A stretch of 39,208 bases of DNA from a virus, in IMG/VR virus record IMGVR_UViG_3300049847_000301, positions 1 to 39,208 of that record; one strand, written 5' to 3'. Shown piece by piece: positions 1,072-37,232 of the stretch. Positions within the stretch are counted from its first letter, which is position 1. Each line of letters opens with the position of its first letter. Both the position numbers and the translations under genes were made by a program. The notes under the pieces were generated by a model. That model ran no database searches and was not told the origin of the DNA. It worked only from the letters and a program-made list of their open reading frames with translations.

Positions 1072-1267
1072 GTGAACGAGAGGATGGGAAACAGTGAATA
1101 ATTTTTACTTCTACACGCGAATAGCAATGGTTACCATTGGAACTTCCTTTATTCCTCAACCAAATAGAATAGCGATCGCGGCCCTGATATGGGCGGTTTA
1201 TTTCACCGTTCGCATTTGGGAGGAAAAATATATGGAGAAATAACTTGTGGGTGAACGAGAGGATGGG
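1072..1267 (+). repeat. exact 17-bp direct repeat flanking a small membrane gene
   Basis: GTGAACGAGAGGATGGG occurs at 1072-1088 and again at 1251-1267. Both copies hold the ribosome binding site of the gene that follows: the 49-aa membrane protein at 1094 and the RNA ligase at 1274. A tandem duplication of the leader, or insertion of the small gene by recombination at the RNA ligase leader, would give this arrangement. Confidence 0.75.
1094..1243 (+). CDS. small membrane protein, 49 aa (GTG start)
   Basis: The GTG at 1094 lies about 10 nt after AGGATGGG and opens a 49-residue protein. Its middle (about residues 24-41, IAIAALIWAVYFTVRIW) is one hydrophobic segment, followed by an acidic-basic tail (EEKYMEK). 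A single-pass inner-membrane protein is the simplest reading. It sits between the two copies of the 17-bp direct repeat. No family recognised. Confidence 0.55.
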   Translation: MNNFYFYTRIAMVTIGTSFIPQPNRIAIAALIWAVYFTVRIWEEKYMEK

Positions 1268-1273
1268 GGGAGT

Positions 1274-1900
1274 ATGAAAGAGTATCACAAGATAAATTCG
1301 CTATTTAAGCGTGACCAAAAAACAAACAAATTCATTATGAATGATTGGGCTGATCCAGCTTTTGAATATCTTTCCGGAAATCAATGGCAATTCACCGAGA
1401 AAGTGGACGGAACAAACATTCGCGTTATGTGGAACCATGAAACGAAGGAATTGAAGTTCGGTGGGCGTACCGATTCAGCCTCAATGCCATTGTTTCTTTT
1501 GTACGAGCTTGAGCGTATTTTTCACAAAACGAAATTCATTGAACTTTATCCTGAAGTTTCGATGTGTCTTTACGGCGAAGGCTACGGAGCTAAGATTCAA
1601 AAGGGCGGAGGGAATTATATCTCTGGTGGACAGTCTTTCGTTCTATTCGACGTTTTGATTGGCGATATGTACCTGGAAAGACCCAACATTGAAGACGTTG
1701 GTGGAAAGTTGGGATTGAAAATCGTTCCTATCATTGGAAACGGTACTCTCGAAGAAGCCATTGAAAGATGCAAGTTCGGATTTAATTCTCAATGGGGTAA
1801 TTTTGAGGCGGAGGGAATCGTGGCGCGACCGTTAACAGAATTAAAAGATCGGCGCGGACACAGAATCATCACAAAAGTTAAATGCCGAGATTTCAAGTGA
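1274..1900 (+). CDS. RNA ligase (Rnl2-type nucleotidyltransferase fold)
   Basis: Seals 3'-OH/5'-phosphate RNA ends through a ligase-AMP intermediate. All nucleotidyltransferase motifs are visible: motif I with the adenylated lysine EKVDGTNIR (K43), motif III LYGEGYGAKIQ (about 100-109), motif IIIa FVLFDVLI, motif IV EGIVARP (180-186) and motif V ITKVK (about 199-203). The length (208 aa) fits a ligase without a C-terminal extension. I chose the ATG at 1274 because GGGGGGAG lies just before it; a GTG at 1247 is in frame but unsupported. In phages such enzymes typically repair tRNAs cut by host anticodon nucleases, and that role is an inference here. Confidence 0.9.
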   Translation: MKEYHKINSLFKRDQKTNKFIMNDWADPAFEYLSGNQWQFTEKVDGTNIRVMWNHETKELKFGGRTDSASMPLFLLYELERIFHKTKFIELYPEVSMCLYGEGYGAKIQKGGGNYISGGQSFVLFDVLIGDMYLERPNIEDVGGKLGLKIVPIIGNGTLEEAIERCKFGFNSQWGNFEAEGIVARPLTELKDRRGHRIITKVKCRDFK

Positions 1901-2850: not shown

Positions 2851-3264
2851 ATGAAAGAAATTAAGTTTAGGGCGTGGGACTTAAAACTCAAAGTGATGTA
2901 TCCGCACGTTCAAGATTGGTACGACACTCTCACGGAAGAAGATGGGGAACCTCAACAGCCGGAACAAAGTTTCGGGCGATTGTTATCAAAATCTAAACGC
3001 TATATCCCAATGCAATACACCGGCCTAAAGGACAGGAACGGGAAGGAGATTTATGAGGGGGATATTTTAAAAACTAATACTGGTGAAAAATTAAAGGTTT
3101 ACTGGCATGAACATTTAACTGGATTTGGAGTTGATTTAGCGACTGATAAAAAATTCATACCAGTTCAACAACTACTTGAAATAAAATTTGTCGAACCTAA
3201 GTTCTGGTATCTTCAAACAGAGGTCATCGGTAATATTTACGAAAATTCGGAGCTGTTAAAATGA
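2851..3264 (+). CDS. YopX-family phage protein
   Basis: The start MKEIKFRAWD and the central MQYTGLKDRNGKEIYEGDI are the hallmarks of the YopX family, a small beta-rich protein widespread in phages and prophages. The C-terminus (EVIGNIYEN) also matches the family ending. The biochemical role of the family is not established. AGGGGAAAAT supplies the ribosome binding site, and the stop overlaps the following ATG. Confidence 0.9.
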   Translation: MKEIKFRAWDLKLKVMYPHVQDWYDTLTEEDGEPQQPEQSFGRLLSKSKRYIPMQYTGLKDRNGKEIYEGDILKTNTGEKLKVYWHEHLTGFGVDLATDKKFIPVQQLLEIKFVEPKFWYLQTEVIGNIYENSELLK

Positions 3265-4839: not shown

Positions 4840-5127
4840 TCAAGGCCGTATTTTCTCACAACACAGAACATTTTTTTTGTTTATTACCCACTCGATACCG
4901 CTCTTGGTCATAATGTGGATACATTCATTTTCCCAAACAGAAACAATCTCTCGAATGGTTCTTTTGTAGCCGCCGACAAAATGGATGATTTGAGTATGTG
5001 TCATGGGAGCCAATGGAAGTGGAAATCCATTCCCCGAACAATCAGGACACGTACGATCTGGTTGGAATGATTCAAATAATTTTCCAGCACCACCACATCG
5101 TTTACATTTAGCTAGTTCTGATTTCAC
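4840..5127 (-). CDS. DnaJ-type zinc-finger protein, 95 aa (GTG start)
   Basis: CKRCGGAG and CPDCSGNG, 15 residues apart, form one half of a DnaJ-type zinc finger. A beta-rich C-terminal part follows with further Cys (VLCCEK). I place the start at GTG 5127, because AAAGGAG sits five bases before it. The in-frame ATG at 5160 directly follows the terminator T-tract and has no ribosome binding site. It is the first gene after the structured leader at 5161-5303, so readthrough of that leader should control it. It is probably a standalone zinc protein rather than a co-chaperone, as no J domain is present. Confidence 0.65.
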   Translation of the reverse strand: MKSELAKCKRCGGAGKLFESFQPDRTCPDCSGNGFPLPLAPMTHTQIIHFVGGYKRTIREIVSVWENECIHIMTKSGIEWVINKKNVLCCEKIRP

Positions 5128-5160
5128 TTTTTCTCCTTTAATTTTAACTATCCTTTGCAT

Positions 5161-5303
5161 TAAAAATAAAAAGCCCTACGTCCGTTCGATGGTAAATCTG
5201 TTCAAGGGATTTGCCCTCACGGTGGACGTAGAGCTAAATTGGTCGTGATTGGTATACGCTATAACGTTCCGCTCACATTTTGCCCGAACCGTGCCTTGAA
5301 CGT
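5161..5303 (-). ncRNA. structured leader or small RNA ending in an intrinsic terminator
   Basis: Transcription leftward from the promoter at 5308-5337 would give about 140 nt of RNA. Its 3' part folds into a 12-bp stem (5172-5183 with 5224-5235) followed by TTTTTATTTTT, a textbook intrinsic terminator. The only non-Watson-Crick pair in that stem is G-U in the leftward RNA but would be C-A in the other strand, supporting the leftward direction. Inside the loop GGTAAATC (5191-5198) can pair with GATTTGCC (5208-5215). The 5' end, GTTCAAGG then CACGG in RNA sense, is complementary to CCTTGAAC and CCGTG within the loop, an alternative or pseudoknot pairing. The zinc-finger gene starts about 35 nt beyond the terminator. 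This could be a small RNA or an attenuator-type leader. No known riboswitch motif recognised. Confidence 0.55.
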
Positions 5304-5307
5304 GTTA

Positions 5308-5337
5308 ATTATAATCGATTGTATTTTTATTTGTCAA
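5308..5337 (-). promoter_or_regulatory. strong sigma-70-type promoter, leftward
   Basis: On the minus strand TTGACA (5332-5337) and TATAAT (5308-5313) are separated by 18 bp, both hexamers exact. The predicted start is at about 5301-5303. It drives the structured leader and the small genes at 5127 to 4121. Confidence 0.7.
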
Positions 5338-5396
5338 CAAAAAAATACCCCCCACCTGTGGGGAGATGGGAGGTAAAATTTAAACACTTGGGAGTG

Positions 5397-5665: not shown

Positions 5666-6121
5666 TCATATAGTTCCTCTTTGGTTTGCAATTTTTAATT
5701 GTTCATGAATTTCATTCCGTCTTTTTATTTCTTTATCAGCCACATCTTGATTCCGTCCATATCCCATCCCCCTCGGTAGTGGACGCCAATTTTTTCTTAA
5801 TAGTAAAGCCAATCGGCATTGTTCTATTTTCACTAACAGATAGGGCTGTAAACTTTCTAAAAATATACCGGCTTTTTTACAGTCTATACGCCAATTGTAA
5901 ATATTTTTATGGTTGAGACCTCTTTTGTAGGGCCCTGCGATAGTTCCGCCAAATATGCTCTTAATAAAGATTAACGGGGACAAACAAGTATTCATCACTT
6001 GGATGGTCAACGTGTAGGCATTGTCCCGTTTATTGCAATTTTTCCTTATATGAATTGAACCTTCACCATCAAAAAATCCGGCGATATAAGAAAGATTTGA
6101 AGGAGTCTTTAAATTTTCCAT
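5666..6121 (-). CDS. LAGLIDADG homing endonuclease (free-standing)
   Basis: YIAGFFDGEGSI (residues 12-23) is a clear LAGLIDADG helix ending in the acidic metal ligand. AGIFLESLQPYL near residue 84 is a weaker second helix, and the 151-aa length fits a single-domain LAGLIDADG_3-type enzyme. It makes a double-strand break at a cognate site so that recombination copies it. It starts from GGAGG at the end of one copy of a repeated leader and its stop overlaps the start in the second copy, so it appears inserted just before the holin gene. No intron or intein boundary is seen. Confidence 0.8.
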   Translation of the reverse strand: MENLKTPSNLSYIAGFFDGEGSIHIRKNCNKRDNAYTLTIQVMNTCLSPLIFIKSIFGGTIAGPYKRGLNHKNIYNWRIDCKKAGIFLESLQPYLLVKIEQCRLALLLRKNWRPLPRGMGYGRNQDVADKEIKRRNEIHEQLKIANQRGTI

Positions 6122-7713: not shown

Positions 7714-8789
7714 AATCCAAGATCCATGGGGTCAGATTTTTGGTCAGATTTTAAATTGCGAACAGGTCTATTAACACGTTCAGAAGAAGAAGTAATAGCA
7801 TCTTCCAATTTATTAAACGAAATCTTCATTGCTTGGACTTGTGCTTTAAATGCTGGCATGGACAAGTTTCGATTTGCTGCTATTTCCGAAAATGCTTTTT
7901 GTTCGTTATTCGTTAATGTCGCACCGTAGAAATTATTTCTCATAACAGTGTTGGCCAATTCAATAATAGACCTGAAATAAATTGCGTCTGGATCAGTGGA
8001 ATTATCTATATAAGCACCTATATTCTTATATTGTCTATCTATTAAACCAATTTTGTCGTCTGTTAAATATTTAGAAGCTTCATCAATTAAACCTCTTTGT
8101 TGATAAACATCACGCAATTCTTTTTCAGCCCCAGAAGATGGATTTTGAGATTGTGGATAATTTTTGCCAAAATACGGAATAGATTCTTTTGTTTCTGGAT
8201 CAATTTCCATAAAAGACTCATTTTTAGAATCCCAAAATAAAGGATTCCCATTCTCCGAAACTCTATTCATTGGTCTTTTAAAAGTCGACTCTCTTGCTTG
8301 TATATTTTTACCTACTTCACGAAGGAGAGGCAATTCTTCTTCGGAAGCTTTTGATAATATCCTTAAATATTCGTTTTTTATAATAGAAGGATCAGCTTTA
8401 TTCTTGTGTAGATTAAGAAGGTTATCTAAATCATCATTGGTATCATTACCATCATGTTCAATTGAATCTGGGTTTATTCCAAGTGAATATGTTTTATTTA
8501 ATAGTGGAACGACATGTTGTTTATATAAATCTGTTTTTGTCTCTTTCGCCAAAAATTTAGAATATTTTGGATTTAGCAAATATTCAATTGCTTTGTCAGC
8601 GGCTTGCTGTTCCATCAACTCTTTCTTTTGTGCTCGCTCCTGTTCAAGCATATCCTGCTGCCTCTGCCTAAGGCCAAGCGTTTGCCCTGTCTGGTATCCT
8701 TGCATAATGGCGTCAAGGGGGTTCGCCTGTGGAGTTGGATTAAAATTTACATTTGGAGCAGGTACGTTTGTTCTAAAGTTTTGAGCCAT
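7710..8789 (-). CDS. internal virion-like protein, 359 aa
   Basis: A soluble, Gln/Asn-rich, largely helical protein with an N-terminal coiled coil (LRQRQQDMLEQERAQKKELM). It has no signal peptide and no enzyme motif. It lies between two other candidate ejection proteins and ends in an ATGA overlap with the next gene. CGGAG precedes the ATG. I infer a capsid-internal or tail-associated role; not recognised by name. Confidence 0.5.
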   Translation of the reverse strand: MAQNFRTNVPAPNVNFNPTPQANPLDAIMQGYQTGQTLGLRQRQQDMLEQERAQKKELMEQQAADKAIEYLLNPKYSKFLAKETKTDLYKQHVVPLLNKTYSLGINPDSIEHDGNDTNDDLDNLLNLHKNKADPSIIKNEYLRILSKASEEELPLLREVGKNIQARESTFKRPMNRVSENGNPLFWDSKNESFMEIDPETKESIPYFGKNYPQSQNPSSGAEKELRDVYQQRGLIDEASKYLTDDKIGLIDRQYKNIGAYIDNSTDPDAIYFRSIIELANTVMRNNFYGATLTNNEQKAFSEIAANRNLSMPAFKAQVQAMKISFNKLEDAITSSSERVNRPVRNLKSDQKSDPMDLGL

Positions 8790-8812
8790 ATTTTCTCCGT
8801 TATAATTAATAT

Positions 8813-9664
8813 TTATACAACCGCTGTTTTTTTAGCTCCACCAGCTAGTTTTCCACCATAGATAGTCGCCCCAGCTTGGAGGGCACTGTTAAACAGGCCA
8901 ATCCGATTAGATCTGGTCTGATTCTTTGCATCTGCATTTAAAGTAGCCTGGTTATAAGCTGTATTGTAATTGTTGAGTAAAGCCTGATTCCTTAATTCAA
9001 TATTAGACAAATCACGGTTGTAAATAGCACTTCTTTGACCGCCGTAGACATCCTGTAAGCCACCATAAGCGGTATTTAAATTCAGGCTATTATTAAAATA
9101 GTTCTGCTTGTTTTGATTTGTAAGTCCAAGCCTATTTAAGTTCTGTGATCCACCAAAGGACAAGTCGCCTCTTCGTTGTTCATCGGCCAACAAGGAATAC
9201 CTCTTATTGAACTCAGATAATATCTGGTTCCCAGCAGTAGAATCAGACGTTGCAGAAGAAGGATCGTCTCCAAGAATACGGATACCACGGCGTCCAGCAG
9301 CCTCTACAAGCTTATTAAACTCTTGATTACGAGCTTGCTTCTGGGCAATGCTTAATTCGCCCTGTTGCTGTTTTAAGGCTTGTAAATAGCGTTCGTTCTC
9401 TGCTTGTGCGATTTGGTCATTTGACTGGTCGTAGGCAGTCGGAGCTTCGTTTAAACGCCCTTTGTATTGATCCAGCATGGCTCTTCGTTGCTGTATTAGG
9501 TCAAGTTCTTCTGGTGTGAAGTTTGGAACCTCTGGGTTAAGGATAGGGTCAGGAGCCCCAGGGAGATTAGGAGCCCTTGATCTTGTTACGTCTCCCAAGA
9601 ATCCAGCAGTTAAAGCAGTAACAGGAGCCACCAAGCTCGCTATGTTTTTAAGTTTAAATCCCAT
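8813..9664 (-). CDS. internal virion-like protein, 283 aa
   Basis: The N-terminus is hydrophobic (IASLVAPVTALTAGFLGDV), followed by a Pro-rich stretch (PNLPGAPDPILNPEVPNFTP) and a long Gln/Asn-rich helix region with repeated LNxAY-type motifs. The C-terminus (LQAGATIYGGKLAGG) is glycine-rich. This composition is typical of short-tailed phage ejection proteins stored in the head. AAGGAG precedes the ATG. Assignment is by composition and order. Confidence 0.5.
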   Translation of the reverse strand: MGFKLKNIASLVAPVTALTAGFLGDVTRSRAPNLPGAPDPILNPEVPNFTPEELDLIQQRRAMLDQYKGRLNEAPTAYDQSNDQIAQAENERYLQALKQQQGELSIAQKQARNQEFNKLVEAAGRRGIRILGDDPSSATSDSTAGNQILSEFNKRYSLLADEQRRGDLSFGGSQNLNRLGLTNQNKQNYFNNSLNLNTAYGGLQDVYGGQRSAIYNRDLSNIELRNQALLNNYNTAYNQATLNADAKNQTRSNRIGLFNSALQAGATIYGGKLAGGAKKTAVV

Positions 9665-19716: not shown

Positions 19717-20603
19717 TATCTGTAGTCTGACACCCTATCCAGAATATTACTGATATCCATGCCATAAGTCTCTCTTGTAATCAAATCGTAAAGAACCTTT
19801 CGGTATCTCGTGTAAGCGTCATTTGCTCTAACATCATCTTCATCATCCAGCTTCTTAAATCGGATGCCTTCAACAAAAATCTGTCTCCACCGTTGATATA
19901 TCGTGGACATATGGGTGCTGTCGATATCAATAAGCATGATATTGGCGTAATAGCGAAGCCTGGCACCGTAAACACGGTCAGGAGCCTTCTCCAAGATGAA
20001 CTCTCCGAAATCTTCATCTCCAATGGGGTAAAATTTGGTTGCTATCCCGGTTAAGGGTGTCTGGAACACGGTATCTCTTTCGTAAATAGGACGTTGTTCT
20101 ACAGGCCATTCCGTGTCTACAATCATATAGCCAGAGGTTGAATCTGGGGCAGTTGAGAATTCAGGGGTTACGGTTGCTACCTTGGTCGTGGTGTTATAAG
20201 CAATAATTTGGGAATAGCTGCCTTGTCCTGTTCCTGAAATGATTAAGATCTCCCTGCCAAGGATATATACTTCTGCTGATACGTCAGAAGCTGATAAGGT
20301 TATGGAAGACGAAGACCCTGTTTGGGCTGTCCCACGATTAGAACCGTCTAGGATGGTTAAGCTTAAATCGCTTGAGAAATCGTCTGGGTTGGTAAATCTG
20401 GATTGGCCTACTGGGAAGATGCCGTAAGATGTGGCGTGTAGAAGTTTTGGTTTTTTACCCAAATGCCAGATATCATTCTTTATTTCTTCCATCCACACTG
20501 TTTTTGCTCGGTTGGTTGATGCCGTAGTAGGAGAAGACTCGCCGCCTTTGGCAAGTCCTTCGGCCACAATCTCGCTTAGTGTGGGGCTAGATGGGGTTGA
20601 CAC
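19716..20603 (-). CDS. head-tail adaptor-like protein, 295 aa (GTG start)
   Basis: Helices at the N-terminus (about 25-50, TVWMEEIKNDIWHLGKK) and C-terminus (QRWRQIFVEGIRFKKLDDED and the following helix) enclose a beta-rich insertion of about 130 residues with ILISGTGQGSYSQII-type strands. This helix-sandwich-helix layout is that of gp4/gp11-type connectors fixed beneath the portal. GAGGTG precedes the GTG at 20603, which lies inside the end of the glycosyltransferase gene. Assignment by architecture and position. Confidence 0.5.
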   Translation of the reverse strand: MSTPSSPTLSEIVAEGLAKGGESSPTTASTNRAKTVWMEEIKNDIWHLGKKPKLLHATSYGIFPVGQSRFTNPDDFSSDLSLTILDGSNRGTAQTGSSSSITLSASDVSAEVYILGREILIISGTGQGSYSQIIAYNTTTKVATVTPEFSTAPDSTSGYMIVDTEWPVEQRPIYERDTVFQTPLTGIATKFYPIGDEDFGEFILEKAPDRVYGARLRYYANIMLIDIDSTHMSTIYQRWRQIFVEGIRFKKLDDEDDVRANDAYTRYRKVLYDLITRETYGMDISNILDRVSDYR

Positions 20604-21742
20604 GTTAGCACCTCGCTAAACGTGTTTACCCATTGATGGAACTGGGTGTTGACGTTGAAGTTATTTTCTACAACAACATTGGCTTCTTCCGCAATACTTT
20701 TTCTTAAATCTTTATTATCTATTAAAGTTTGTATACCAGAGATCCACCCTTCTTCATTGTTATCTTCTATGTAAATTCCGTTGTCTTTGCCAGACGATAA
20801 ATCAATTAATTCTTTGTATGGAGTTACCAAAGAAGAAACCGATGGAACAGTTAAGGCTCCCATTTCAATCCATTTGATGGGGCTCTTACATATGTTGAAA
20901 TTGGTTTCTTTGAGAGGAATAACTGCCATATCTAAATCAAGTAAAGTCATCCGATACGAATGAGAAGCGACTTCTGTCCAGCCATGATATTCAAATTGGT
21001 CAGGAGGATAATCGTCAGACATACCAAGTGGGAGATATCCACAAACTACAATTTTTACATTCTTATTCTTTTTGACAATTTCTTTTAAGACATTACGAAT
21101 AATAAATAAATCTTCCCAATGGGAATGACCGCCTGACCAGCCGATCCTTATTTCATCTGGATTCGATCTAACGAAGTCACGTTTCTTCCATTCATTCACA
21201 TCCACGCAATTGGGAAGGATGCGAACATTATCATTGTATTGACGGTAAACATTTACGAGAGGTTCACCCGTTACTGTAACCATATCACACAACTCGATAC
21301 CACGTTTTATGTTATCAAGTTTTATTTGGTTCGCTTTCAAATCTATATTAACTCCATCTTTCCATTCAAAAACTGTTTTACCATTCGATTTAATCTTAAA
21401 TTCTTTTGTTCCATAGTCAAGATAATGGTTTGAAAGAGGGCTGACAGAAAAAACATCATCATCTTGATCCATGACTATTTTTCGATTAGAAGAATTTGAT
21501 TTTATTACATTCATCATTTTCATCATGAATTCATATCCAATAATACGCTGGAAAAAGAAAACATCTGATTGCATAGCAAGTTCAAAAGCTTGCTTTCTGT
21601 ATTCGATATCAAAGAGTATGTTTTGTGGCCACAAGCATTTCAAATCAAAAAATCCGGCCATGGTAGCTTTCTCAAGAGGAAGCACAGCTCTGTACCAATC
21701 ACAAGCACCTTTGCTATTTTGGAAATAAGTTACTTTCATCAT
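20576..21742 (-). CDS. GT-B glycosyltransferase, 388 aa
   Basis: Transfers a sugar from a nucleotide donor. The C-terminal half shows the GT-B/GT4 donor domain: RIGWSGGHSHWEDL, then NVKIVVCGYLPLG, MAVIPLKETNFNICKSPIKWIEMGALTVPSV and VVENNFNVN. The N-terminal half carries KGACDWYRAVLPL, like other phage and bacterial GT-B enzymes. It is last in a four-gene modification cassette. It overlaps the radical-SAM gene (ATGA) and the adaptor gene (28 nt), so it is co-translated with virion proteins. Acceptor unknown: capsid, fibre or host surface glycan. Confidence 0.85.
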   Translation of the reverse strand: MMKVTYFQNSKGACDWYRAVLPLEKATMAGFFDLKCLWPQNILFDIEYRKQAFELAMQSDVFFFQRIIGYEFMMKMMNVIKSNSSNRKIVMDQDDDVFSVSPLSNHYLDYGTKEFKIKSNGKTVFEWKDGVNIDLKANQIKLDNIKRGIELCDMVTVTGEPLVNVYRQYNDNVRILPNCVDVNEWKKRDFVRSNPDEIRIGWSGGHSHWEDLFIIRNVLKEIVKKNKNVKIVVCGYLPLGMSDDYPPDQFEYHGWTEVASHSYRMTLLDLDMAVIPLKETNFNICKSPIKWIEMGALTVPSVSSLVTPYKELIDLSSGKDNGIYIEDNNEEGWISGIQTLIDNKDLRKSIAEEANVVVENNFNVNTQFHQWVNTFSEVLTCQPHLAPH

Positions 21743-22809
21743 AGGAGGCTCATTTTCATACTGTCATTTATAAAACCATGCTCAATAATTTCATTATACC
21801 CATTCAATACGCACCTTGGGCAATTACTCAAATCAATAGATTCAATAACTTTTCTATGCTCAGGAGAACCCCATATCTCTTCAAACTTTTGTTCGTTGTA
21901 ATTACCGAATCGAAGATAAGACTCTCTTAAAGATGTCCCTCTGTCCTGGCAGACAATGAAACGGCCATCACCGGAAGTAACAGCCATTAAAGGTGTTGCT
22001 CTGCACTTCCCATAAATCTTCTCAGTCCAGAACCCGTCGAACTTCTCAATTCGGAAGAACACATTCTTGTATTGTTTCTCTAGTCTCTTAGAAGACTCTA
22101 TAAGCTTGGGTATAATTTCATCTTTTACCGCTTTCCCTCCGCCTGGATACTCCCTATCAAGATAATCAGGGTCAAGGTATGCAGGGCGTATCTGGATAAA
22201 ATCAGGGTTGAATTGTTGGCCCCATTCGCAGAACTGTTCTATTTCATGCCAATTTATAGGAGTAATAACAAAGGCAAGCCCAAGTTCGTTCTTCAAGCCT
22301 TCTGATCTTAATTTCGCATGATTCGATATATTCTTATTAACTCTTTCCCAGCCATCACCTTTGGGGACTCGATGTATCTTTTGGTAAGTGTCTGCAGTAG
22401 CGGCATCAACTGAATAACGGACAAAATCGAATGGGGTAGGGTCGTCCAGTAAATACCCTTGGTTGTCAATACCAACAAGGATACCCATATCCTTTACTTT
22501 TCTTGCTGTTTCAAGTGTCCATGGATTTAAGAGTGGGTCTCCACCACCTGTAAATTTAACGCATTTAACGCCAAGCCTTAATGCGTCAACGGGTATTTTT
22601 GACATTGTTTTTTCTGGAAGCATTTGTTTAAAGTCTTTTTGAATCTCAGCCATAATACAATGACCGCACCTATATCCGCATATGTTGGATGGATAAATAA
22701 CCCATTCAATGGGATTGGGGATATCCCCCTTAACAATCTTTTCTATCTGATCTGAATGGCGTAAAACTTTGAACTTTTGGAACCTATTATAATCTGGATG
22801 AGAACTCAT
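21739..22809 (-). CDS. radical SAM enzyme with SPASM/twitch-like C-terminus, 356 aa
   Basis: CGYRCGHC (residues 44-51) is the CxxxCxxC motif that binds the [4Fe-4S] cluster cleaving S-adenosylmethionine. VKFTGGGDPLL is the GGE-like SAM-binding motif. The C-terminus has KCRATPLMAVTSGDGRFIVC, FGNYNEQKFEEIWGS and NCPRC, the pattern of a SPASM or twitch auxiliary-cluster domain. Such enzymes modify peptides or sugars. Coupled genes on both sides are glycosyltransferase and methyltransferase, suggesting a role in making or altering a glycan. No small precursor peptide gene is seen in the cassette. Confidence 0.85.
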   Translation of the reverse strand: MSSHPDYNRFQKFKVLRHSDQIEKIVKGDIPNPIEWVIYPSNICGYRCGHCIMAEIQKDFKQMLPEKTMSKIPVDALRLGVKCVKFTGGGDPLLNPWTLETARKVKDMGILVGIDNQGYLLDDPTPFDFVRYSVDAATADTYQKIHRVPKGDGWERVNKNISNHAKLRSEGLKNELGLAFVITPINWHEIEQFCEWGQQFNPDFIQIRPAYLDPDYLDREYPGGGKAVKDEIIPKLIESSKRLEKQYKNVFFRIEKFDGFWTEKIYGKCRATPLMAVTSGDGRFIVCQDRGTSLRESYLRFGNYNEQKFEEIWGSPEHRKVIESIDLSNCPRCVLNGYNEIIEHGFINDSMKMSLL

Positions 22810-32055: not shown

Positions 32056-32125
32056 CCTTGGCACGGTTTGGGTATCATGGCCTCAATCCTCAATAATCCT
32101 ACCACAACAATTTATGTTCTGTCAA

Positions 32126-32174: not shown

Positions 32175-32217
32175 AAGAGGGTAACAAAACAAAAATCTTG
32201 GCAGAGGAGAAAATCAC

Positions 32218-33676: not shown

Positions 33677-33908
33677 ATTTAATTCCTCCCGACACGTTGT
33701 CAATATCACGGCGGGCATTGGGCTCAACCCAATTAATGGCAATGGAGATAGGGTTTTTAATGGGTTTTAAGGCAAGGGCATGATACGCACATAAATCAGT
33801 AGCGGTTTTTTTCAGTTTACCGCCAGCAAACCGGTTGTACCTATCAGCGGATATCATTTCGTTTGTACCTGGTAAACGGCCGGGGATAACAAAGCTTTGT
33901 TTATTCAC
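33543..33908 (-). CDS. rusA: RusA-type Holliday junction resolvase, 121 aa
   Basis: Cuts four-way junctions made by replication and recombination. FVIPGRLPGTNE near the start, RRDIDNVSGGIKFILDGLV (D68, D70, D81) and GRLPNDSRQWV (D92) give the RusA core with the catalytic acidic residues. The length matches RusA. It is the last gene of the leftward replication unit and its 3' end overlaps an oppositely directed gene by 134 bp. Confidence 0.9.
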   Translation of the reverse strand: MNKQSFVIPGRLPGTNEMISADRYNRFAGGKLKKTATDLCAYHALALKPIKNPISIAINWVEPNARRDIDNVSGGIKFILDGLVKSGRLPNDSRQWVQAISHFFPPIDKKCPRVEVSIFES

Positions 33909-36031: not shown

Positions 36032-36690
36032 GGGTTAACCCCTCCCTGTGTTGTTGCTTCTTTTTGGTTTCTGGCCTTCCAGTTACGCACGGCGGCTTTC
36101 CAGTCTTTCATCGGAGACTTGCCAATAAGCCAGCCCTTCGACTCATAGAAATCCAGGAAGGATTGCCCATCTACGTTGTAAAGTATGCTTTTTGCATATT
36201 CGGCAACCTGCTGGGCGGTTGGTTTCTCAAACCGCTTCTTATCTTTTCTTTCCTTTCCTTTACTTTCCTTTGGTTCGTTTGCTTCAAGCGTTGCTTCGTT
36301 TTGCTTCATTTTGCTTCGTTTTTCACCTGAACTTAAGCCTCCAAGTCTACCAGCTTCAACTCTTTTCATTCGTTTATTAAGTCTTTCTACTAGATTTCCC
36401 TGAACACGCTTAGACCATATATATTTATCATCCTCTTGCAGCAGGTAAAACTCGTTAATCGAAGCAAAAATAATTTGCTTCAGCATTGCTTCATCAATGC
36501 TTAATTGGAATGCTAAACCAGCGGTAAGACCTGGGAATTTTTCAAATTTTCCATCTTTCTGCTCGTGCATTAATTCAACAAGTGTCCACCAGATGCCAAC
36601 ACCCTCGAATCCGAACTTGCTTCTCAAGGCGGCAAGCTTAGGATCTCGGCTAGCGTTTGAGTCATGCGGGAAGTAGTATGCGTCTTTCAT
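36022..36690 (-). CDS. DUF4373 / Lin1244-type replication protein, 222 aa
   Basis: The start MKDAYYFPHDSNASRDPKLA, followed by KFGFEGVGIWWTLVELMHE, is diagnostic of the DUF4373 (Lin1244/Lin1753-like) domain found at the N-terminus of phage replication initiators of the DnaD kind. A Lys/Glu-rich linker (about 120-150) leads to a C-terminal module (SFLDFYESKGWLIGKSPMKD and then AAVRNWKARN). It leads the leftward replication unit and overlaps the helicase gene. GGAGGC, the ribosome binding site, can pair with GCCTCC 55 nt upstream. Confidence 0.8.
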   Translation of the reverse strand: MKDAYYFPHDSNASRDPKLAALRSKFGFEGVGIWWTLVELMHEQKDGKFEKFPGLTAGLAFQLSIDEAMLKQIIFASINEFYLLQEDDKYIWSKRVQGNLVERLNKRMKRVEAGRLGGLSSGEKRSKMKQNEATLEANEPKESKGKERKDKKRFEKPTAQQVAEYAKSILYNVDGQSFLDFYESKGWLIGKSPMKDWKAAVRNWKARNQKEATTQGGVNPWD

Positions 36691-36696
36691 TTATAT

Positions 36697-36764
36697 ATGC
36701 CTCCAAAATAAAAAGCCCCCAGAGCCCCTAGTCGGACTCGGCAGAGGACGAAGGGGGTGGAGGC
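36697..36764 (-). promoter_or_regulatory. leader of the replication unit with terminator-like and SD-sequestering hairpins
   Basis: In the leftward RNA GCCGAGTCC-GACTAG-GGGCTC forms a hairpin followed by GGGGGCTTTTTATTTT, like an intrinsic terminator, only about ten bases before the ribosome binding site. Alternatively CCCCC pairs with GGGGG and GCCTCC (36759-36764) pairs exactly with GGAGGC (36699-36704), which would hide the Shine-Dalgarno. Both features suggest post-initiation control. Confidence 0.45.
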
Positions 36765-36843
36765 GAAAAAAAAGCCCGAAAAGAGTTTAGTCTTTACGAG
36801 CGAATATGTTTTTGACATTGCCGAATCTCTTTTTCATATGGCC

Positions 36844-36871
36844 AATTTACAAAATGTGGAACAGATGTCAA
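36844..36871 (-). promoter_or_regulatory. leftward promoter for the replication unit
   Basis: On the minus strand TTGACA (36866-36871) is followed after 16 bp by TAAATT (36844-36849). It is back to back with the rightward promoter at 36910 and would give a leader of about 145 nt before the gene at 36690. Confidence 0.5.
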
Positions 36872-36938: not shown

Positions 36939-36979
36939 CACAAGTGTCACAAACAAAATTCTTGGCAGAGGAGGCTCAC

Positions 36980-37073: not shown

Positions 37074-37232
37074 ATGAACAACTACTTACCATGCGATCTT
37101 ATTAAAATGTTTGAAGATGCAAAGAGGGAAGCAAACATACCTGAATTAATAGAAGCACTCGAAGTTGTGCGGCTTGATCTAAAACAAATGGCAGAGGAGT
37201 TTAAAAACTGTGAACATCGAATTAAAATCTGA
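37074..37232 (+). CDS. small helical protein, 52 aa
   Basis: ATG 37074 follows the preceding stop by one base; no strong ribosome binding site, so coupling is likely. The protein is a charged helical hairpin (LIKMFEDAKREANIPELIEA and LEVVRLDLKQMAEEF). Its 3' end overlaps the next gene and contains that gene's GGCAGAGGAG site. Confidence 0.5.
   Translation: MNNYLPCDLIKMFEDAKREANIPELIEALEVVRLDLKQMAEEFKNCEHRIKI

Follow-up and report, generated by a model that had tools for sequence, protein, structure and literature searches.

The window analysed here is a virus record of 39,208 bp, assigned to an SU10-like podovirus on the basis of Pfam matches to an SU10 portal protein and an SU10 major capsid protein. 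The viruses most closely related to it are represented by IMG/VR contigs whose terminases are about 52–54% identical to its own; two of these contigs approach full length, namely G010 at 38.8 kb and G004 at 38.2 kb, the capsid gene of the latter being split between both contig ends. The leftward late operon stops at ∼5.4 kb with a strong terminator (5346–5375, minus strand) consisting of a 12-pair hairpin and 7 T, and the RNA locus that is the subject of this analysis (5337–5161, minus strand) lies directly after it. The late-operon terminator is separate from that of the RNA and is located upstream of the RNA promoter. Elsewhere in the window, a LAGLIDADG endonuclease gene (5666–6121, minus strand) is a near neighbour of the lysis-region gene for the M15 peptidase, the structural gene block also encodes a radical SAM/SPASM protein and a glycosyltransferase (20576–22809, minus strand), and an RNA ligase gene (1247–1900, plus strand) is followed by a YopX gene (2851–3264). 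The RNA ligase gene of ctKR88 likewise adjoins a YopX gene.

The locus begins with a sigma70-type promoter, TTGACA-18-TATAAT (5337–5308, minus strand), which is the sole exact match to this pattern in the window compared with a chance expectation of 0.04. From the positions of the promoter and the terminator, an RNA of ∼140 nt is predicted (5161–5301, minus strand), starting near 5301 and ending in the U-tract. The intrinsic terminator is formed by a stem, S2, in which the 5′ arm AGCUCUACGUCC (5224–5235) makes 12 pairs, including one U·G, with the 3′ arm GGACGUAGGGCU (5172–5183) around a 40-nt loop, followed by UUUUUAUUUUUA with its U-tract at 5162–5171. Both the exact promoter and the 12-bp stem with a single odd pair had been described in an earlier note on this sequence, and both descriptions are correct. 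A second helix placed within the loop by the same note, GGTAAATC/GATTTGCC, is a plus-strand reading; the leftward RNA has GGCAAAUC/GAUUUACC with a C·A mismatch. Both the MFE and the centroid folds contain an internal hairpin (5245–5276, minus strand) in the interval between the 5′ end and the terminator stem, which is regarded as tentative because its sequence is not conserved. The folding energy of the whole RNA shows a modest gain over shuffled sequences (z=−2.1).

The 5′ end of the predicted RNA can pair with the terminator loop. Its first 14 nt (5288–5301, minus strand), GUUCAAGG and CACGGU, form a helix, S1, with a loop strand, S1′ (5200–5223, minus strand), that provides the complementary CCUUGAAC (5200–5207, 8 bp) and ACCGUG (5218–5223, 6 bp). 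About 0.07% of upstream dinucleotide shuffles reach the S1 score (p=0.0007), the corresponding value against loop-shuffled sequences is p=0.004, and the 8+6 motif appears in 4 of 5,000 shuffles of the whole RNA. The pairing had previously been noticed, although as 8+5 rather than 8+6 bp, and it had been entered together with the terminator stem as two separate features, both of which are real, while the pseudoknot that they form was overlooked. The two helices cross because S1 joins a strand located 5′ of the stem to one located within the stem loop. The window RNA is predicted from this model to be an H-type pseudoknot with an S1 of 8+6 bp, an S2 of 12 bp and a hairpin between them. The loop L3, AGAUUUACCAUCGAAC (5184–5199, minus strand), includes the 11-mer GAUUUACCAUC. 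When only nested folding is considered, the S1 pairing competes with the full terminator (−29.4 versus −37.5 kcal/mol). The 5′ helix ranks first in stepwise folding from nt 105 to 125, before the terminator 3′ arm has been made, and its overlap with the S2 5′ arm is limited to 4 nt. Such an early helix could be used by small RNA and attenuator models alike.

The gene downstream of the RNA (4840–5127, minus strand) encodes a 95-residue zinc-finger-like protein. The ORF tool places its start at an ATG at 5160, within the U-tract; the ribosome-binding site GGAG points to a GTG at 5127, which agrees with the earlier placement of the gene start about 35 nt beyond the T-tract. The term zinc finger is a fair one, given a weak DnaJ CXXCXGXG match below the Pfam cut-off and two CxxC motifs, and the C-terminal QIIHFVGG..KRT domain is common to other phages. 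No promoter-like site was detected between the U-tract and the GTG, and hence the gene is probably transcribed by read-through from the RNA promoter. Relatives of the gene in other phages are found in ordinary operons that do not contain the RNA. They were also considered as a source of further leaders and rejected, one of them (locus L004) being an ordinary DnaJ and the others lacking the RNA.

Related and unrelated contigs totalling 997 kb were searched for units of the same design using a descriptor comprised of a terminator stem, a long loop and an upstream strand that pairs with the loop, with a promoter within reach; a first, loose descriptor based on duplex energy was dropped as it had no specificity. 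The scan yielded 39 promoter plus long-loop-terminator units, four of which have p≤0.004 (binomial 4e-5). These are the window RNA, two units in G010 at 8.4 kb (plus strand; S1 p=0.0017) and 36.8 kb (minus strand; S1 p=0.0003), and one at 33.7 kb (minus strand) in L065, which is MW202462, the closest capsid protein record within the phage collection. A unit at 19.9 kb in G003 is next in rank (p=0.03). S1 scores of at least 30 occur in 5 of the 39 real units versus 2 of 195 swapped loop/upstream pairs (Fisher 0.0017). No RNA of this design was found in the near-full-length G004, and neither BLAST of the RNA against phages and plasmids nor exact motif scans of IMG/VR returned relatives. An 18-nt motif scan of genome contigs gave 11 matches, approximately the number expected by chance, and none of these extended into the RNA.

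The window itself contains a second promoter–leader–terminator unit (36675–36871, minus strand; TTGACA-16-TAAATT) preceding a Lin1244_N-type gene, and the terminator 5′ arm of this unit, GCCUCC, is also able to pair with the GGAGGC Shine–Dalgarno sequence of the gene. This leader was rejected as a further member of the group, its 9-bp pairing between 5′ end and loop having an S1 p value of 0.10. Two rightward 5′ leaders (32198–32209 and 36962–36973, plus strand) have TTGGCAGAGGAG in common before the start codon, with a near match at 37188–37199 (plus strand); allowing up to two mismatches, this element has 9 matches in the window compared with 2.6 expected.

Only one of the units found by the descriptor, the 8.4-kb RNA of G010 (8402–8526, plus strand), is a homologue of the window RNA by sequence score, with a local alignment score of 40, the mean for shuffled sequences being 17 (p≤0.001). 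In S2, 9 of 12 pairs are identical, including the U·G wobble, three are changed on both sides and none is broken; in the 8-bp part of S1 (S1a), five of eight pairs are identical, three are double changes and, again, none is broken. Compensatory changes among homologues, which the earlier note had asked for, are thus found in both of the crossing helices, in one homologue that was itself selected by the search. Since the descriptor demands complementarity, the covariation counts for the G010 copies are partly selected, and what counts as independent evidence is that L3 and the unchanged pairs are identical. The L3 11-mer is identical in the window RNA and the G010 8.4-kb RNA, and the chance of an 11-nt match between any two of five loops is 15 in 20,000. 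The 36.8-kb RNA of G010 carries GAUGUACC in L3 and shares five identical pairs with the window RNA in each helix (out of 12 in S2 and out of eight in S1a), together with five and three double changes, respectively; over its whole sequence it resembles the window RNA no more than expected by chance (p=0.46), and it is grouped with the window RNA by architecture only. The same applies to the weaker look-alikes in L065 and G003. The L065 unit (33702–33800, minus strand) has a 5′ helix of UUGGCGG/CCGCCAA and CUCAGUA/UACUGAG, its terminator loop contains a GNRA-type hairpin, CACCGAAAGGUG, and a hypothetical protein is annotated across it on the opposite strand. Neither G010 copy directly precedes a co-oriented gene. 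The 8.4-kb RNA is antisense to leftward late ORFs and lies inside a 235-residue ORF (8371–9078), and the 36.8-kb RNA is followed only after ∼200 nt by a gene, which has its own weak promoter candidate.

The view that the RNA belongs to no recognized class is in agreement with the Rfam searches. The window gave no gathering match to any family, including riboswitches, T-boxes, sRNAs, abiF and type III antitoxins, and believable matches were absent for the window RNA up to E=10 and for the G010 copies. The closest analogues in layout are type III toxin–antitoxin and AbiF units, in which one promoter drives an RNA of ∼130 nt that is followed by an intrinsic terminator and a promoterless gene, and the antitoxin RNAs of type III systems fold as H-type pseudoknots (PMC5086642, PMC12373285). 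The same order of promoter, RNA, terminator and gene is present at the window locus, and the RNA might on this analogy serve as antitoxin in a unit resembling type III or AbiF systems, with the small downstream protein as its toxin. We consider this very improbable. No tandem antitoxin repeats were found at the RNA by TRF, Pfam gave only weak zinc-finger matches in the search for a ToxN, CptN, TenpN or Abi toxin downstream, and PADLOC assigned the downstream protein to no defence family. Moreover, unlike in type III RNAs and the AbiF RNA (RCd22), the pseudoknot is built with the terminator hairpin itself and the RNA is not linked to the zinc-finger gene in relatives. An H-type pseudoknot near a terminator is likewise found in pseudoknotted riboswitch attenuators such as preQ1, but the stems of the window RNA are much larger, it matches no Rfam family and it has copies without an adjacent regulated gene.

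Among phage RNAs, lambda OOP, P1/P7 c4 and DicF are short, have a promoter and a terminator or terminator-like 3′ end, and act by antisense pairing. The window RNA resembles them in being a short phage RNA with a promoter and a terminator; however, no antisense target stood out for it. Complementarity to gene starts gave nothing consistent across the RNA copies, and a 12/13-nt complementarity to the late-operon leader at 32060–32072 was rejected as within chance. In the phi29 packaging RNA, the fold rather than the sequence is kept and the loops have complementary sequences. The window RNA shares these properties, but it has no sequence or topology match to the phi29 RNA and no sign of a packaging role.

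The locus could also be an ordinary promoter and terminator with chance complementarity, the terminator being the only functional structure. The modest energy z-score fits this explanation, as does the absence of such an RNA from G004, and further points in its favour are the small number of long-loop terminators and the partly post hoc nature of the test. Nevertheless, three loci have S1 p values of 0.0003–0.0017, the swapped-pair control gives few high scores and the homologue retains both helices through double changes, and we regard chance as an improbable explanation. The RNA might instead be a transcription attenuator of the zinc-finger operon, in which co-transcriptional pairing of the 5′ end with the loop, and of GGGC with GUCC at the end of the S2 5′ arm, would delay the terminator so that polymerase passes, and termination would be restored once the 5′ end is sequestered by a ligand, a protein or a competing RNA. 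The promoterless gene start 35 nt beyond the U-tract and the early 5′ helix of the stepwise folds, which takes part of the S2 5′ arm, are in keeping with such a mechanism. On the other hand, S1 pairs mainly with the loop and not with the stem, and the terminator is not excluded as it would be by a classical antiterminator; in addition, no gene directly follows the G010 copies, which have the same architecture, and relatives of the zinc-finger gene have no such leader. Attenuation, while less improbable than chance pairing, is in our judgement unlikely.

The comparative sequence evidence favours a free-standing small RNA over a leader or riboswitch of the zinc-finger gene, and we rank these two readings in this order because the G010 copies do not directly precede a co-oriented gene and the zinc-finger relatives lack the RNA. 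The earlier alternative of a small regulatory RNA or an attenuator/riboswitch is accordingly retained in its first half and disfavoured in its second. Two features of a stand-alone small RNA are present, namely its own promoter and intrinsic terminator and no tie to a downstream gene in relatives. We propose that 5161–5337 is probably the gene of a discrete, pseudoknotted phage small RNA of about 115–140 nt that would act in trans. A dedicated sigma70 promoter would drive its transcription, a dedicated intrinsic terminator would end it, and the pairing of the RNA 5′ end with the long terminator loop would interlock S1 and S2 as an H-type pseudoknot. Counting against this proposal are the single homologue by sequence score, the partly selected covariation counts, the opposite-strand ORF around the 8.4-kb RNA of G010, the lack of such an RNA in G004 and the competition between S1 and the full terminator in nested folds. 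The closed fold may hide the 5′ end and give a long-lived RNA, and the likeliest contacts with a partner in trans, which may be a host or phage protein or an RNA, would be the single-stranded conserved L3 element GAU(U/G)UACC and the S1′ loop. In this phage, the terminator would also restrict the zinc-finger gene, for which no other promoter was detected, to low expression by read-through. We would place the RNA in a small and as yet undescribed family, or architecture, of RNAs in SU10-like podoviruses.

More tentatively, and with somewhat less than even confidence, the window RNA may represent a new family of phage pseudoknotted small RNAs that are kept by their fold and a short L3 motif, are present in at least one copy per genome, and act in trans as stable structured decoys or cofactors. 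Candidate targets would be a host or phage machine such as RNA polymerase, the ribosome, an RNase or a defence protein. Small RNAs described from lytic phages are few, and hardly any of them have a structure that is kept across phages with ∼50% protein identity. A 5′ end locked into the RNA's own terminator loop is a compact route to a stable transcript, and the descriptor can be applied to other phage genomes to gauge how common this design is. If the RNA does target a host machine or a defence protein, it would represent a new class of phage RNA effector.
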